A DNA stretch of 15,291 nt, taken from positions 1 through 15,291 of the forward strand of contig JALAGK010000348.1 of assembly GCA_022712475.1 (NCBI GenBank), written 5' to 3'. Position 1 is the stretch's first letter. Every line of letters starts with the position of its first letter. Made by a program: the position numbers and the translations under genes. Positions 4,352-10,000 of the stretch are shown one piece after another. This DNA is from Enterobacteriaceae bacterium. Its GTDB lineage: Bacteria; Pseudomonadota; Gammaproteobacteria; Enterobacterales; Enterobacteriaceae. The notes below the pieces were generated by a model. That model was given only the letters and a program-made list of their open reading frames with translations, had not been told where the DNA came from and made no database searches.

Positions 4352-5269
4352 TTACAGGTAGTCAGCTACAACCAGCTCCAGCTTCCCGCGCATTTCATTG
4401 CTTGCAGTGCCGTCAGCGGTTGCGATCAACTCACGCTCCAGCAACTGAGTTGCGCGTTTTTCATCAGCCGTCGAAACAACGAGCACGGTAGGCTTGAGAC
4501 CCAGCTTCTTGCCACCATCCCCCACAAAATCGCGCATCTGCTGCCAGCCCGCCCACAGATTGTCCAGATTCAGTTCGGCCCTCATTGCAACGGCCATTTG
4601 CCAGAACGCAAAACCGACCGCACGACGAGCACTTGCGCCAAACAGGAATTCGTTTTCCCTAAAGACGTGGTCATCGCTAACGCTGGATTTGGTAACCAGC
4701 TCAGGCTTGCGTCGGTCCTGGAAAATCAGCGGTTTTACTGCTCGTGAACAATCGAGCAGATACCAGGGATTTCCGGACCAGCCCGCCTGCATATAGATAT
4801 TGCTGACACCGACAGCGGTGCCGGTGCCATCAACAGTCGGATAAACAGGGTGTTCAGTATCGAAAAAGTTGTTGCCGTCATAGCACGGCTGGGTGAAGCC
4901 GTTAGCCAGCAGTTCAAACGTCAGTTCGTCAGGCTGGACACCGGCAGCGCGCCCCATCTCCTCAAATACGGGTTTGTAAACACCGAGGTTGTCATCTTCA
5001 AAATCGTCGCGGGGGATGCCGACAGTGCCTTCATACGTTTTGTTGTTAACCGTGTAGCCGTGCGCCTGCATTTGTTTAATGACGCGGGGTCCGATCCATT
5101 CGCGTAGCGTTGGGAACTTACCGAGCCAGCCGTAGGTGTTCGACTTTGAGGATGACGGCACCGTCATAGCGATTTTCTGGTACTGGCTCGGTGCTGAGGT
5201 TAAGCCGCTCTGAAAATCCTTTTTATAGGACGTCATCAGTGCCGAGATTGAGGCGGGAGTAATAATCAT
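4352..5269 (-). CDS. T: Major capsid protein (Mu T / gp34-like)
   Basis: This encodes a 305-residue protein beginning MIITPASISALMTSYKKDFQ, the same length as the Mu major head subunit T. The family opening (L.......F..G), the LGKFPTLREWIGPR segment near residue 50, NKTYEGTVGIPRDDFEDDNLGVY near residue 77, and the C-terminal LKPTVLVVSTADEKRATQLL are highly characteristic of Mu-like HK97-fold capsid proteins. It assembles on the scaffold Z encoded within the upstream protease gene. Its ATG overlaps the protease/scaffold TGA (ATGA at 5269-5266). A GC hairpin follows the stop. Confidence 0.95.
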   Translation of the reverse strand: MIITPASISALMTSYKKDFQSGLTSAPSQYQKIAMTVPSSSKSNTYGWLGKFPTLREWIGPRVIKQMQAHGYTVNNKTYEGTVGIPRDDFEDDNLGVYKPVFEEMGRAAGVQPDELTFELLANGFTQPCYDGNNFFDTEHPVYPTVDGTGTAVGVSNIYMQAGWSGNPWYLLDCSRAVKPLIFQDRRKPELVTKSSVSDDHVFRENEFLFGASARRAVGFAFWQMAVAMRAELNLDNLWAGWQQMRDFVGDGGKKLGLKPTVLVVSTADEKRATQLLERELIATADGTASNEMRGKLELVVADYL

Positions 5270-6560: not shown

Positions 6561-7031
6561 TCACGGCGCTGTGGCGCTTTCAGCGCGTTTTTTGATGGCG
6601 TCAAAAATTTCCTGCTCACCAGTTTTGTCGAGGCCCATGTACGAGCGCGCCGGAACCGCAGCCGGGCCGGGTGACATTCCGGCAGTACCACCCCATTGAT
6701 GAAGGGCTGCTGAAATTTTCGGTGACCCGAGCAACGCATAATCCGGCCCGTAATCCGTGGTAATACTGCGAGCCAGGTCCCCGTCGAGCGTCAGGATTTT
6801 ACCCGGCGTGCGACCGTGTTTTTCACGCCATGCCAGATACGGGTCGCTCCAGCGCGCCCAGTGCTCGCCCGTTACCGGGTCGGCTTCTTTTTCAAATGCC
6901 TGCTCAGTCGATGACAGCAGCGCACCGGCTGCGACACGCGGTATGTGCTGGTCGTTTGCCATCGCACCGAGCCGCGCAAACGCGGTGTGTATGCGACGGA
7001 CATCAACAACGACTGCTAAATCAATGCTCAT
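6561..7031 (-). CDS. G: Virion morphogenesis protein (Mu G / gp31-like)
   Basis: This encodes a 156-residue protein beginning MSIDLAVVVDVRRIHTAF. The pattern of an amphipathic N-terminus, an F..E.DP.TGE.W..W, and then PGKILTLDGDLARSI and a C-terminal PARSYMGLD is the hallmark of the phage virion morphogenesis family that includes Mu gpG. In Mu, gpG is needed for proper head-tail joining or tail completion. The start has a very good ribosome binding site, GGGAGGT with 7 nt spacing. That site lies inside the short dyad ACCTCCCGAGGT (7038-7049), which is also the spacer of a promoter reading the other way. The gene is separated from F by 106 nt holding the tRNA-like RNA, unlike the tight coupling seen elsewhere in the operon. 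Confidence 0.9.
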   Translation of the reverse strand: MSIDLAVVVDVRRIHTAFARLGAMANDQHIPRVAAGALLSSTEQAFEKEADPVTGEHWARWSDPYLAWREKHGRTPGKILTLDGDLARSITTDYGPDYALLGSPKISAALHQWGGTAGMSPGPAAVPARSYMGLDKTGEQEIFDAIKKRAESATAP

Positions 7032-7059
7032 TTACTGACCTCCCGAGGTATCGTATAAT
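7031..7059 (+). promoter_or_regulatory. Sigma70-type promoter for the tRNA-like RNA
   Basis: Reading rightward, TTTACT (7031-7036, 4 of 6 to the -35 consensus) is followed after 17 nt by a perfect -10, TATAAT (7054-7059). The expected start, 7 nt downstream, is A7066, next to the first paired base of the tRNA-like structure. The 17-nt spacer contains the dyad ACCTC-CC-GAGGT, a possible operator. It does not resemble the late promoters, so it may work in the lysogen. Its -35 overlaps the first base of the start codon of G on the other strand. Confidence 0.7.
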
Positions 7060-7064
7060 GACAC

Positions 7065-7140
7065 TAAGCCGGTATACGCTTAACGGTAAAGTGATGTGCT
7101 TCGGCGCATGTATGCAGGTTCAACTCCTGTTACCGGCTTA
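7065..7140 (+). ncRNA. tRNA-like RNA lacking an anticodon loop
   Basis: This is a 76-nt rightward RNA in the F-G gap, opposite to the late operon. Its ends are perfectly complementary over 10 bp (TAAGCCGGTA with TACCGGCTTA). Folded as a tRNA it has a 7-bp acceptor stem (7068-7074 with 7131-7137), U8 A9, and a D arm CGCTT/AAGTG with the loop AACGGTA containing GG. The canonical T arm has GCAGG/CCTGT closing the loop TTCAACT. G18/G19 and TTCAA, needed for the D-loop/T-loop contact, are therefore present. The anticodon arm is replaced by ATGTGC-TTCG-GCGCAT, a 6-bp stem with a cUUCGg tetraloop, so there is no anticodon. No CCA follows (the next bases are ATCA). A consensus-like promoter starts at its 5' end. 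It is likely a structured non-decoding tRNA mimic rather than a working tRNA. The last 3 nt overlap the F stop codon. Confidence 0.72.
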
Positions 7141-8466
7141 ATCAATCTTCCCCTCCAGCACTTCAAGCCAGCCTCCGGCAATATCTGTTATCAGGCTCTG
7201 CGCATCAACGCGATACGCATTTATCAGCACATCCAGTGAATCAGGCTGGCGCTTAACGCTCTGCGCCGCGTTGACCGCTACTTTTGCCGTACCGTCACGC
7301 GTGGTGACGATGTACAGCAGGTTATTGTGCCGGTTGTCCCATAGCACCGCCTGCGGTGCGGCCATCAGCGCAGGCAGTAATTGCAGGTCTTCTGGCCGGA
7401 GCGCAACGCCGGTTGCGTGGTGTTTGGGACTGTCTGCGTGCATCAGACTTTTTTCACTCATCACCAGCAGCCGCGACGGCTCTGAACCTGTGCGTTCACG
7501 CACCGCGTGCGCGATAGCCTCGGTCATAAATCCCAGCGTCTGCACGCCGTGACCGGCGCGGCGGGATTCGGTGAGGCGGCGAACCCACAACGAAAACGCG
7601 AGCTGGCGTTCGCAGCTGTTGTTCAGCACCTGCACAACCTGCTCACGCAGCGCAGCGTCGCGGGTTTCAACCAGCTTACGGATTAACGACTGGTCTGTGC
7701 CGAATGCCGCCGAGCCGGGGTTATACGACCAACCGACGTCGGGCGTCATTTTTACCCGCCCGTTATCAAACGTGGTTGACGTGGTGCGGTACAGCTCGCC
7801 GGTTGCTTCATCCATGCCCGCGTCCACGTCGTGCGTGTGAACGAAAGAGGCCCCGTAGCTGACCTGAAGCCCCAGCGCTTTCATGCGCGCTACTGACAAT
7901 GCCCGGACGCGGCAGCGGCAGCTCCAGCCGTTCGGCGGGTAATGCGCCCTCCAGAACGGGTCATCATAGCGGAACACCATCAAATGCAGCTTTGCGTGCT
8001 CCGGGCGTGTTCTGCCGTCTTCAATCGCTACGTATTGCCAGTACGGAAACTCCTCCGCAGTGTTCATCATCTGCGCGTAACGGCCTGCGTTATACGCAGT
8101 GCGCGTGTTGACGTTGTAAATTGTCGCCAGGCGGCGTGGGCTACCGAGCTGGATTTCTTTTGCGCCACCGGCACTGTCAACAACAATCTGCTTTCCCCAC
8201 CAACCCAGCTTTTGCAGGCGCGGGGCCAGGGTGCGGGTGAATTCCCGGCGGGTGATGCCGTCAGCAATGGCCCGGTCAACTTCCTCCCGGATTGTATTCA
8301 GCACATCAAGGCGCGCTGCTTTTGCCACGGTAAAAGCGCGGGCGTGCGCATCGGTCAGTTGTTCGAACCAGTTCCAGGTAACCGCGTGTCCCTTCGCCCG
8401 AAAATACGCGACGGCCTCTTTCGGTGGCAGGCGCGCTGCATAGGCCAGGTCAACGGTCTGTGGCAT
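7138..8466 (-). CDS. F: Head morphogenesis protein gpF with C-terminal PBECR-like nuclease domain (Mu gp30-like)
   Basis: This encodes a 442-residue minor head protein beginning MPQTVDLAYAARLPPKEAV. The frame is open for 9 more codons upstream, but ATG 8466 has GGGGG 7 nt before it and matches the family start. Residues about 60-190 are the SPP1 gp7/Mu F domain, with VNTRTAYNAGRY and the conserved H..L.....PFW...PPNGWSCRCRV end. Residues about 290-425 form a separate domain containing LLVMSEKSLMHADSPKHH, LPALMAAPQAVLWD and LLYIVTT. It resembles the PBECR (phage Barnase-EndoU-ColicinE5/D-RelE-like) nuclease domains reported at the C-termini of Mu gpF proteins. His343, Lys348, His349 and His350 are candidate active-site residues. 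The start overlaps the portal gene end by 17 nt. The tRNA-like RNA abuts the 3' end on the other strand. Confidence 0.88.
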   Translation of the reverse strand: MPQTVDLAYAARLPPKEAVAYFRAKGHAVTWNWFEQLTDAHARAFTVAKAARLDVLNTIREEVDRAIADGITRREFTRTLAPRLQKLGWWGKQIVVDSAGGAKEIQLGSPRRLATIYNVNTRTAYNAGRYAQMMNTAEEFPYWQYVAIEDGRTRPEHAKLHLMVFRYDDPFWRAHYPPNGWSCRCRVRALSVARMKALGLQVSYGASFVHTHDVDAGMDEATGELYRTTSTTFDNGRVKMTPDVGWSYNPGSAAFGTDQSLIRKLVETRDAALREQVVQVLNNSCERQLAFSLWVRRLTESRRAGHGVQTLGFMTEAIAHAVRERTGSEPSRLLVMSEKSLMHADSPKHHATGVALRPEDLQLLPALMAAPQAVLWDNRHNNLLYIVTTRDGTAKVAVNAAQSVKRQPDSLDVLINAYRVDAQSLITDIAGGWLEVLEGKID

Positions 8467-10000
8467 CGAGACGCCCCCACAAATCCGCGACAAAAATAGC
8501 GCGGGTTAACAGGTCAATCAGCGCGCTGTCGTCCAGGTCGCCATACAGCTCACTGGCTTTGCTCATGGCCGCCTCCGGTCCACTTTTAAGCACTTCCAGT
8601 ATCAACGGTTTCAGCATGGGTTCAGCGGTCTGTTGTAGTTCATCAGCCGTTACGCCTGCTGCCAGTTCGTCTGCTGCATCGCCATCAGCGACCGCTAAAT
8701 CCTGCGCTGACAACGCAGCACGGCCAGCCGGTGGCGTGGGGGCGTCTGTCGCTACCGGAGCCGCAAAAACCGGCTCATTGTTGACAGGCTGCGGAATGCC
8801 GAGCTTCGCCTGAACCCACGATACCGGCACAGGCATACCCGCAGCCAGCTTTGGAATAGCATCGGCAAATGTCGCAATGTCCTCGGATTCGCTGATATCA
8901 AATTTCAGCCGTGGCAGGCGTCGCGGGTCAACCGAGGTGCGACTGTTGAGTGCAAGCAGCGGAAACAGCAGATCACGCCCGACCGTGCGCTCAATCTGAC
9001 CGACATCGGCGTTGCGGATTTCGTGGCGCACCTCGTTGTGCACTTCACCGAGCGACCGCGCGCCTTTGTCGCCCGCCTCTGTTGTGAGCGTGCCGCCCAG
9101 GATGGCTTTTGACATTGCCCGCTCGGCCCAGCTAATCATTGCGACGAACGGGTCAGCCTGACCGTTGGCGGCGCTCTGAAAATCCAGCGTCATTCCCATC
9201 GGGATAATGCCGCCTGCGCGGCGACCAATGTCCATGACGGCCTGCATTAACGTTGATTTTTCGCGGGGTGTTGCGCCTGTCGGGTATTTCCCGACGCGCA
9301 TCGGCAGGCCGTACACCTCCAAAAATTCCGCAAAATCTCTGACAGAGTAGTTTTTGAAGATGAACGGCCAGACGAGCGTCCTGACCAGACCGTGTGTGCC
9401 TGCGTAGCCGGTGCGAGATTTAGCCTGATGGCGCAGCCACCCGAACGGCTGGAGCGGACAACCCTCATAGCTGCCGTCGCGCAGGCGCAGCTCGTGCAGG
9501 TTATCCGGGTTGGCGCAGAATAACGCCGCGTCGCGGTGATGCAGTGCGACCGGGACACGCATCTTCCCGAGCCAGCCCCATTCAATCTCCTGCATCGAAT
9601 ACCCTTTGAGGATGGCATCACCGGCGTCGAAAATGCCGTCTTCAAACCACGACGCATCGCGCAGCAGTTCGTCGAGCATTTCCGCGGCTTTCTTTTCCTG
9701 CGGCGTGGCGTTCTTCGGTGGCTGAATAGCCCATTCAAGCCCCTGGATAGCCAGTCTTCGCTTGCTCAACTCAGAAAAAAGGTGCGTATCTTTTTCTTCC
9801 ATGTCGAATGCCAGGTCAGCCTGCGCGGACAGGTCACCGCTCTCTGCATCGCGCAGCAGCTGCGCGGCGCGGTTTGGTGTAATGCCGCTCGACGGGTGCT
9901 CCTGGGTGCGCTTCATCACCAGCGCCAGCGCTTCCTGTGCCGTTTGTAGTTCATCGTCAAAATCAAACGGCTTACCTGTCAGATCCACAATCTGGCCCAC
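8450..10000 (-). CDS. Portal protein, DUF935 (Mu gp29-like)
   Basis: This encodes a protein of about 516 residues, close to Mu gp29 (512). It has the family features GITPNRAAQLLRDAESGDL, DMEEKDTHLFSELSKRRLAIQGLEW, LKGYSMQEIEWGW, YSVRDFAEFLEVYGLPMRVGKYP and GGTLTTEAGDKGARSLGEVHNEVR. The portal forms the dodecameric DNA channel of the head and the docking site of the terminase. Two GTG codons are possible starts. GTG at 10000-9998 lies 8 nt after AGGGGG and overlaps the terminase stop as TAGTG, whereas GTG at 10009 is almost on top of the same Shine-Dalgarno, so I chose 10000. The C-terminal 100 residues are Ala/Asp/Pro-rich and may contact gpF or scaffold. Confidence 0.93.
   Translation of the reverse strand: MGQIVDLTGKPFDFDDELQTAQEALALVMKRTQEHPSSGITPNRAAQLLRDAESGDLSAQADLAFDMEEKDTHLFSELSKRRLAIQGLEWAIQPPKNATPQEKKAAEMLDELLRDASWFEDGIFDAGDAILKGYSMQEIEWGWLGKMRVPVALHHRDAALFCANPDNLHELRLRDGSYEGCPLQPFGWLRHQAKSRTGYAGTHGLVRTLVWPFIFKNYSVRDFAEFLEVYGLPMRVGKYPTGATPREKSTLMQAVMDIGRRAGGIIPMGMTLDFQSAANGQADPFVAMISWAERAMSKAILGGTLTTEAGDKGARSLGEVHNEVRHEIRNADVGQIERTVGRDLLFPLLALNSRTSVDPRRLPRLKFDISESEDIATFADAIPKLAAGMPVPVSWVQAKLGIPQPVNNEPVFAAPVATDAPTPPAGRAALSAQDLAVADGDAADELAAGVTADELQQTAEPMLKPLILEVLKSGPEAAMSKASELYGDLDDSALIDLLTRAIFVADLWGRLDATDR

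Follow-up and report, generated by a model that had tools for sequence, protein, structure and literature searches.

In type III toxin-antitoxin systems, such as ToxIN, a structured small RNA directly neutralizes a protein ribonuclease (RNase); the RNA repeats are located upstream of the toxin gene and on its strand, and ToxN has a MazF-like fold. To our knowledge, there is no example of an RNA immunity gene for a polymorphic toxin. MuF polymorphic toxins, which occur in temperate phages only, combine a conserved MuF N-terminus with an exchangeable C-terminus, and a neighbouring immunity determinant is expected, the immunity factors being proteins from small open reading frames in the available portion of Jamet 2017 (PMC5576092); this portion leaves open whether the C-terminal extensions of the proteobacterial members (Ct_MAD) are toxins. 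The MuF_C domain (PF18819) is predicted to be an RNase with a BECR fold, and section 19, dealing with PBECR/MuF-C RNases, mentions no partner RNA (Iyer 2017, PMC5512222). Entry of this type of RNase into the next cell along with the DNA is a published prediction, and MuF_C of phage Mu has already been described as inactive. The window analysed here is a stretch of 15,291 nucleotides (nt) of an Enterobacteriaceae bacterium, in whose numbering all coordinates are given. It contains a Mu-like prophage with a tRNA-like RNA gene antisense between gene F, coding for a MuF minor head protein with a C-terminal MuF_C domain, and gene G. Both the presence and the sequence of this RNA track the predicted RNase tail of F, so that it probably represents the antidote that protects the phage's own host, i.e., the immunity half of a toxin-antidote cassette of which MuF_C would be the toxin.

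The likeness to type III toxin-antitoxin systems consists of a structured small RNA that is proposed to neutralize a protein RNase. However, the RNA is a cloverleaf, encoded past the end of the toxin gene on the opposite strand instead of as repeats upstream on its strand, and usually single (tandem in L269 and L270; L followed by digits designates loci, and G293 a genome), whereas the putative toxin, of the predicted BECR type, forms the C-terminal tail of a structural protein of the virion. With the MuF polymorphic toxins (PMC5576092, as far as available), the locus shares the MuF N-terminus, the exchangeable C-terminus, the restriction to temperate phages, and the expectation of a neighbouring immunity determinant, but the neighbour is an RNA instead of a protein. 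The RNase domain belongs, by name (MuF-C; PF18819), to the PBECR/MuF-C family. Phage tRNAs evading anticodon nucleases (PMC10264068, in its available part) are likewise tRNA-shaped phage RNAs in an RNase conflict, but these decode, whereas the present RNA lacks an anticodon loop and has a closing stem of about 9 base pairs (bp). A literature search, with preprints and most subscription journals outside its coverage, retrieved no paper on such an RNA.

The RNA lies inside the 106-nt F-G gap of the window (Table 1). The only reading frame of at least 80 amino acids (aa) that crosses this gap measures 103 aa, is on the plus strand, and runs through the antisense of G. ARAGORN called a tRNA of unassigned type (tRNA-???) at 7067-7139, and the Rfam tRNA model (RF00005) scored 46.0 bits (gathering score 29; E 3e-7), whereas the tmRNA model (RF00023) had no match in the window. 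Energy minimization yields precisely this cloverleaf (-29.3 kcal/mol, z -3.3), with only two of 200 shuffled sequences being equally good. The first-pass annotation had recognized U8 and A9, a D arm with GG, the T arm, a 6-bp arm with a UUCG loop, and the lack of CCA, all of which were confirmed at their positions. It had also described an acceptor stem of 7 bp, extendable to 10; indeed, AAGCCGGTA pairs with TACCGGCTT over 9 bp, or 10 bp with T7065-A7140 added, but the stem is really one of 9 bp. In the position of the anticodon arm, a hairpin is found (ATGTGC-UUCG-GCGCAT). Hence, the cloverleaf with D and T arm consensus of RF00005 is present, but a 4-nt loop on a 6-bp stem replaces the 7-nt anticodon loop with its anticodon, and the combination of a 7-bp acceptor, an unpaired base 73, and an encoded CCA is lacking, CCA at positions 74-76 occurring in none of the 40 sequence types collected. 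A decoding tRNA was rejected, as an anticodon loop was seen in none of the members printed. The genome of the window contains one such locus. The next two matches of R1, a covariance model built from the 40 distinct first-type sequences, scored 38 and 36 bits, which is about the score of a sequence in L185 that looks like an ordinary tRNA (38.3 bits).

Table 1. Features of the tRNA-like RNA locus in the window.
Feature	Position	Strand	Remarks
tRNA-like RNA gene, whole element	7066..7139	+	ARAGORN, Rfam, covariation, R1 73.9 bits, fold energy
Closing (acceptor) stem, 5' strand, 9 bp	7066..7074	+	All nine pairs covary
UAC connector: U8 A9 and one extra base (C)	7075..7077	+	
D-like arm, GCTT AACGGTA AAGT	7078..7092	+	
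Hairpin replacing the anticodon arm, 6 bp, UUCG loop	7094..7109	+	Hypervariable in relatives
T arm, GCAGG TTCAACT CCTGT	7114..7130	+	
Closing stem, 3' strand	7131..7139	+	Last bases overlap the F stop codon
Sigma-70-type promoter, TTTACT-17-TATAAT	7031..7059	+	10/12 matches; relatives have comparable sites in this position
Gene F, MuF minor head protein	7138..8493	-	451 aa as listed
F residues 300-451 with MuF_C (PF18819 at 356-434)	7141..7596	-	Predicted RNase, probable partner of the RNA
Gene G, other border of the gap	6561..7031	-	Divergence does not track the RNA

Homologues of the RNA were found antisense in the F-G gap of Mu-like phages of Enterobacterales, Pasteurellaceae, and other gammaproteobacteria, each of those inspected with a hairpin instead of an anticodon loop, which upholds the initial description as a non-decoding tRNA mimic and indicates a large and fast-evolving family rather than one decayed tRNA. 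The sources were similarity, pattern, and gene-F searches, of which the pattern scan yields a lower bound. As blastn returned zero matches, both for the RNA region against phage records and for the RNA alone against Escherichia coli, homologues were reached via patterns, gene F, and the covariance model. Acinetobacter matches of the genome pattern scan, which had a single conserved coding frame in common, were dropped by eye, as were other matches without a T arm. A homologue occurs in the same gap in prophage Sp18 of E. coli Sakai and in other E. coli strains; the neighbourhood was matched in 60 of 5426 E. coli genomes, and the homologue is annotated as tRNA-OTHER in 28 of 30 among the E. coli records listed. 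Applied to 26 gene-F loci, R1 located the RNA directly after F in 16 and none in 10; among 58 further loci, 29 matched, each antisense beside the end of F, and the 23 most distant F relatives (L280-L302) gave no R1 match. Six loci missed by R1 (L256, L260, L261, L268, L271, and L272) appeared tRNA-like by eye, L260 also when folded. Among ten relatives scanned, RF00005 at E 0.1 matched only L206 and L269, and RF00023 matched L230 alone, below its threshold (17.6 versus 47 bits). A class-wide R1 scan (E 1e-9, stricter filters) had the window itself as sole match in 369 genomes, indicating that such prophages are sparse or divergent. In L269 (3814-3973) and L270, two differing tRNA-like RNAs stand in tandem in one F-G gap, and a Bisgaardia hudsonensis contig (L169) carries two Mu-like F-G junctions (2909-2977 and 4455-4536), each with a very different tRNA-like RNA.

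At least 40 distinct first-type sequences were collected. In their alignment, 96.4% of the cells were paired (79.6% in shuffles), and 12 of 18 pairs had changed on both sides (shuffle mean 9.3), including all nine acceptor pairs; this covariation vanishes when the partners are slid. The acceptor of Pasteurella phage Pmp9, for example, differs in sequence yet is compensated. At least nine contiguous closing-stem pairs occur in 32 and at least eight in 37 of the 40 types, so that this stem is not a fortuitously extended 7-bp stem; L057, L105, and L227 have one mismatch, and a U-U mismatch is found in L232, L057, L137, and L227. Compensatory changes, which the earlier annotation had proposed to seek in all four stems, were present in the acceptor and T stems, whereas the D stem hardly varies (16 of the 40 lack its first pair) and the hairpin varies in sequence, length, and loop in the relatives inspected. 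Plus-strand G-U cells numbered 49 versus two A-C mismatches (non-independent cells, 22 of the 49 coming from one D-stem column with T-C in 16 others), which assigns the structure to the plus (RNA) strand and disfavours one acting in the late mRNA on the minus strand. Covariation, the G-U excess, and the promoter described below argue for the postulated selection for a non-decoding fold, but not for its UUCG-type loop: the relatives have AACA, UCAU, GNRA, AGU, and longer loops (by eye), so that only some kind of hairpin is kept.

In gene F, annotated as DNA pilot, minor head protein, the MuF domain is N-terminal and MuF_C is C-terminal, the latter scoring 29.7 bits in the window (curated cut-off of PF18819, 27.6). 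Of seven F proteins, three were above this cut-off, one was below it, and three had no match; sequence comparison with solved structures gave three matches, at chance level only. The key MuF_C residues of the window F are H352, S355, K357, H358, G362, N391, N425, and Y427. When 46 F proteins of RNA-bearing loci were compared with nine of loci without the RNA, H352, H358, G362, and N425 were present in all 46 and in none of the nine. The same absence from the nine was found for Y427 (45 of 46, one Phe) and for the K357 position (43 Lys and 3 Arg), while S355 occurred in 45 of 46 versus two of nine. This alignment excludes L164, L254, L273, and L275, whose frames are interrupted, as well as L202, for which the start coordinate was wrong and whose F contains one stop. 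In a larger set, with duplicates of the last 110 residues removed and at least six of the eight key residues counted as intact, a gap of 60 nt or more followed F in 49 of the 51 loci with an intact motif and in none of the 44 with MuF_C inactive or absent (range -56 to 53 nt); at 60% identity, these represent 16 clusters and 5 plus 16 clusters, respectively. The two intact loci with a shorter measured gap, L152 (41 nt) and L260 (37 nt), both have the RNA, another start codon having been measured. Among the controls, L317 (partial frame; variant motif and a cloverleaf) and L275 (the RNA beside an interrupted F) stand there because of frame length only.

Only 37 of the 51 intact loci passed a closing-helix test at p 0.05, as this test examines just the vicinity of the F stop and misses RNAs with an intervening terminator; it flagged five of the 44 controls, namely L148, L154, and Mu (one related group), L380, and L317. 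In the RNA-less L305 (Mu), L148, and L154, a 9-bp complementary pair spans the F-G junction, either by chance or as a remnant. In Mu and relatives, F and G overlap or abut; they overlap in Mu (by 4 nt), D108, SfMu, Mu_3F6, and PhiR68_1, in which neither ARAGORN nor R1 found the RNA, and F of Mu has lost the stretch with the histidine motif. Similarly, the central part of F of Shewanella phage MuM16-1 is close to that of L230 and L234, but the histidine and N-x-Y motifs are lost, and 9 nt without RNA separate F from G, in agreement with the motif-RNA rule. L307, an F with the motif that comes from a new sample of genomes, follows this rule only by half: the gap and a TATAAT are there and a candidate closing stem can be read by eye, but neither a clean cloverleaf nor an R1 match was obtained. 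Other or variant C-termini were found in 44 more F proteins, 26 of them with a gap; the variants L336, L363, L310, and L317 again have cloverleaf-like folds. L334-L336, L358, L363, and L395, with a variant MuF_C of G.RHG..TF-like residues and an RNA T arm often built on CCGGTTCGARTCCGG, perhaps form a second subfamily. In L337, L339, L340, L341, L348, and L286, other C-terminal extensions of F precede gaps of approximately 100-146 nt, which may hold further RNAs or small immunity genes. In Pseudomonas phage JBD30 (L303:1865-2101), the gene acrF1, directed against clustered regularly interspaced short palindromic repeats (CRISPR), follows G, one gene from the RNA site, indicating that Mu-like genomes acquire accessory genes in this region.

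The RNA also diverges along with MuF_C. Across 50 loci, with the RNA represented by 4 nt of F and the 85 nt that follow it (long RNAs clipped), RNA distance correlated with MuF_C distance after removal of the F N-terminus and G (partial Mantel r 0.60, p 0.001). The raw correlations were 0.71 for MuF_C, 0.51 for the F N-terminus, and 0.45 for G, and the partial correlation with G was -0.15; in the window, some 35 nt separate the start of G from the RNA. RNA divergence thus follows neither the F N-terminus nor G. Furthermore, L152 and L155 are 94-99% identical in the F N-terminus and 97-99% in G, versus 55-80% in MuF_C and the RNA. Among 13 hand-picked, non-random pairs, such a joint difference was clear in four (L152/L155, Sakai/L022, L257/L274, and L255/L274), weaker in Sakai/STEC299 and L252/L255, and absent in seven, including Sakai/L014, where identity dips elsewhere in F. 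MuF_C and the RNA thus appear to differ together as an exchanged toxin-immunity cassette would, with an exchangeable C-terminus on a conserved MuF N-terminus, as in the MuF polymorphic toxins.

The promoter ends 6 nt upstream of position 7066, a spacing that places the transcript start probably at the first base of the closing stem (approximately 7066). The promoter test required a closing helix, which limited it to 48 of the 51 intact loci; in these, scores upstream of the closing stem had a median of 11.3, versus 0.2 in antisense-of-G controls. The 95th percentile of these controls was exceeded in 34 of the 48 and not in 14, among which L269, L270, and L321, where the helix taken is probably the wrong one. 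In all four loci scanned outside the window (L250, L257, L273, and L278), the RNA strand has a terminator-like hairpin that closes the gene ahead of F, while the same scan of the window found none.

Copies of the RNA without F were found as well. Alishewanella aestuarii (L185), a gammaproteobacterial metagenome-assembled genome (L199), and G293 (L137) each gave one R1 hit and no F match at E 1e-5, the metagenome-assembled genome being possibly incomplete. The copies L185:4455-4528 and L199:3250-3328 are separated by approximately 130 and 190 bp, respectively, from the nearer end of a CRISPR array with some 40 or more repeats. Judging by the repeat sequences, the arrays are I-F-like and I-E-like, and the copies are situated at what looks like the trailer end, in convergent orientation to the array. 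In the genus of L185, the RNA was present in only two of 31 genomes, the other copy being the phage copy L202, so that the orphan copy is probably not old. A third type (L232:2292-2368) lies upstream of a DUF2971 gene, with gpT and Mor genes nearby, and no F was found at this locus.

The sequences establish the RNA gene, its fold, its co-occurrence with the intact motif, and its co-divergence and co-exchange with MuF_C. It is very likely that MuF_C is the protein partner of the RNA, and probable, though less well supported, that the RNA inhibits it. In the proposed mechanism, the MuF_C tail of F, a BECR-type RNase, would enter the next cell along with the DNA, its target presumably being a tRNA or tRNA-like RNA. 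The lysogen would express the tRNA-like RNA from its own promoter, and this RNA would mimic the tRNA parts recognized by the RNase, namely the closing stem, D arm, and T arm. As it offers no anticodon loop to cut, it would bind, occupy, and thereby inhibit the RNase, shielding the lysogen both when F expression leaks and when related phages enter; where the RNase is dead, the RNA would be missing.

Alternatively, the RNA may be a working partner of MuF_C, such as a cofactor, a guide, a cut sensor, or cargo that is packaged with F and injected. This would account equally well for co-occurrence, co-divergence, and co-exchange, and a tRNA nuclease could bind a tRNA-like shape. However, the RNA is kept in three genomes without an F homologue (E 1e-5) and also next to F frames that are interrupted, where a pure cofactor would be unnecessary, and its own promoter on the strand opposite the late genes suits lysogens, making a working partner unlikely. 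A cis-antisense regulator that pairs with the F-G late mRNA and silences G or F in the lysogen would explain why the RNA is antisense and between F and G in every case where these two genes were found next to it, and hypervariable hairpins are usual in antisense RNAs. Yet, the overlap with F amounts to just a few bases, a terminator-like hairpin stops the RNA before F in the four scanned loci, the D- and T-loop hallmarks of tRNA are superfluous for pairing, three kinds of copies occur away from F and G, and RNA divergence does not follow G; such a regulator is very unlikely. A stand-alone decoy against host tRNA-directed defences (e.g., anticodon nucleases), unrelated to F, agrees with a tRNA-like shape without cleavable anticodon loop and with an accessory, fast-evolving gene under its own promoter, but it leaves the tie to eight MuF_C residues and the co-exchange with MuF_C unexplained and is highly improbable. 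Lastly, a decayed tRNA gene or chance fold, which the lack of anticodon and CCA might suggest, can be dismissed in view of the strong covariation in 40 distinct sequences, the conserved place of the promoter, and the same site in many phages.

A partner RNA that covaries with MuF_C also accounts for the silence of the model phage Mu, its MuF_C being degenerate and the RNA absent, and for a number of E. coli annotations as tRNA-OTHER. The target of the RNase and the immunity factor are left open in the available parts of PMC5576092 and PMC5512222, and a partner RNA makes both testable. A speculative and rather doubtful extension is that the injected RNase attacks RNA-guided or tRNA-based host functions, that the RNA is a polymorphic-toxin immunity gene, and that hosts have captured the antidote as a shield. 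On this view, the CRISPR-side copies (two of the three without F, at approximately 190 bp or less) would agree with a suggestion in the literature, according to which CRISPR RNAs are destroyed by some PBECR RNases. If the cassette is what it appears to be, RNA would join the immunity factors of polymorphic toxins.
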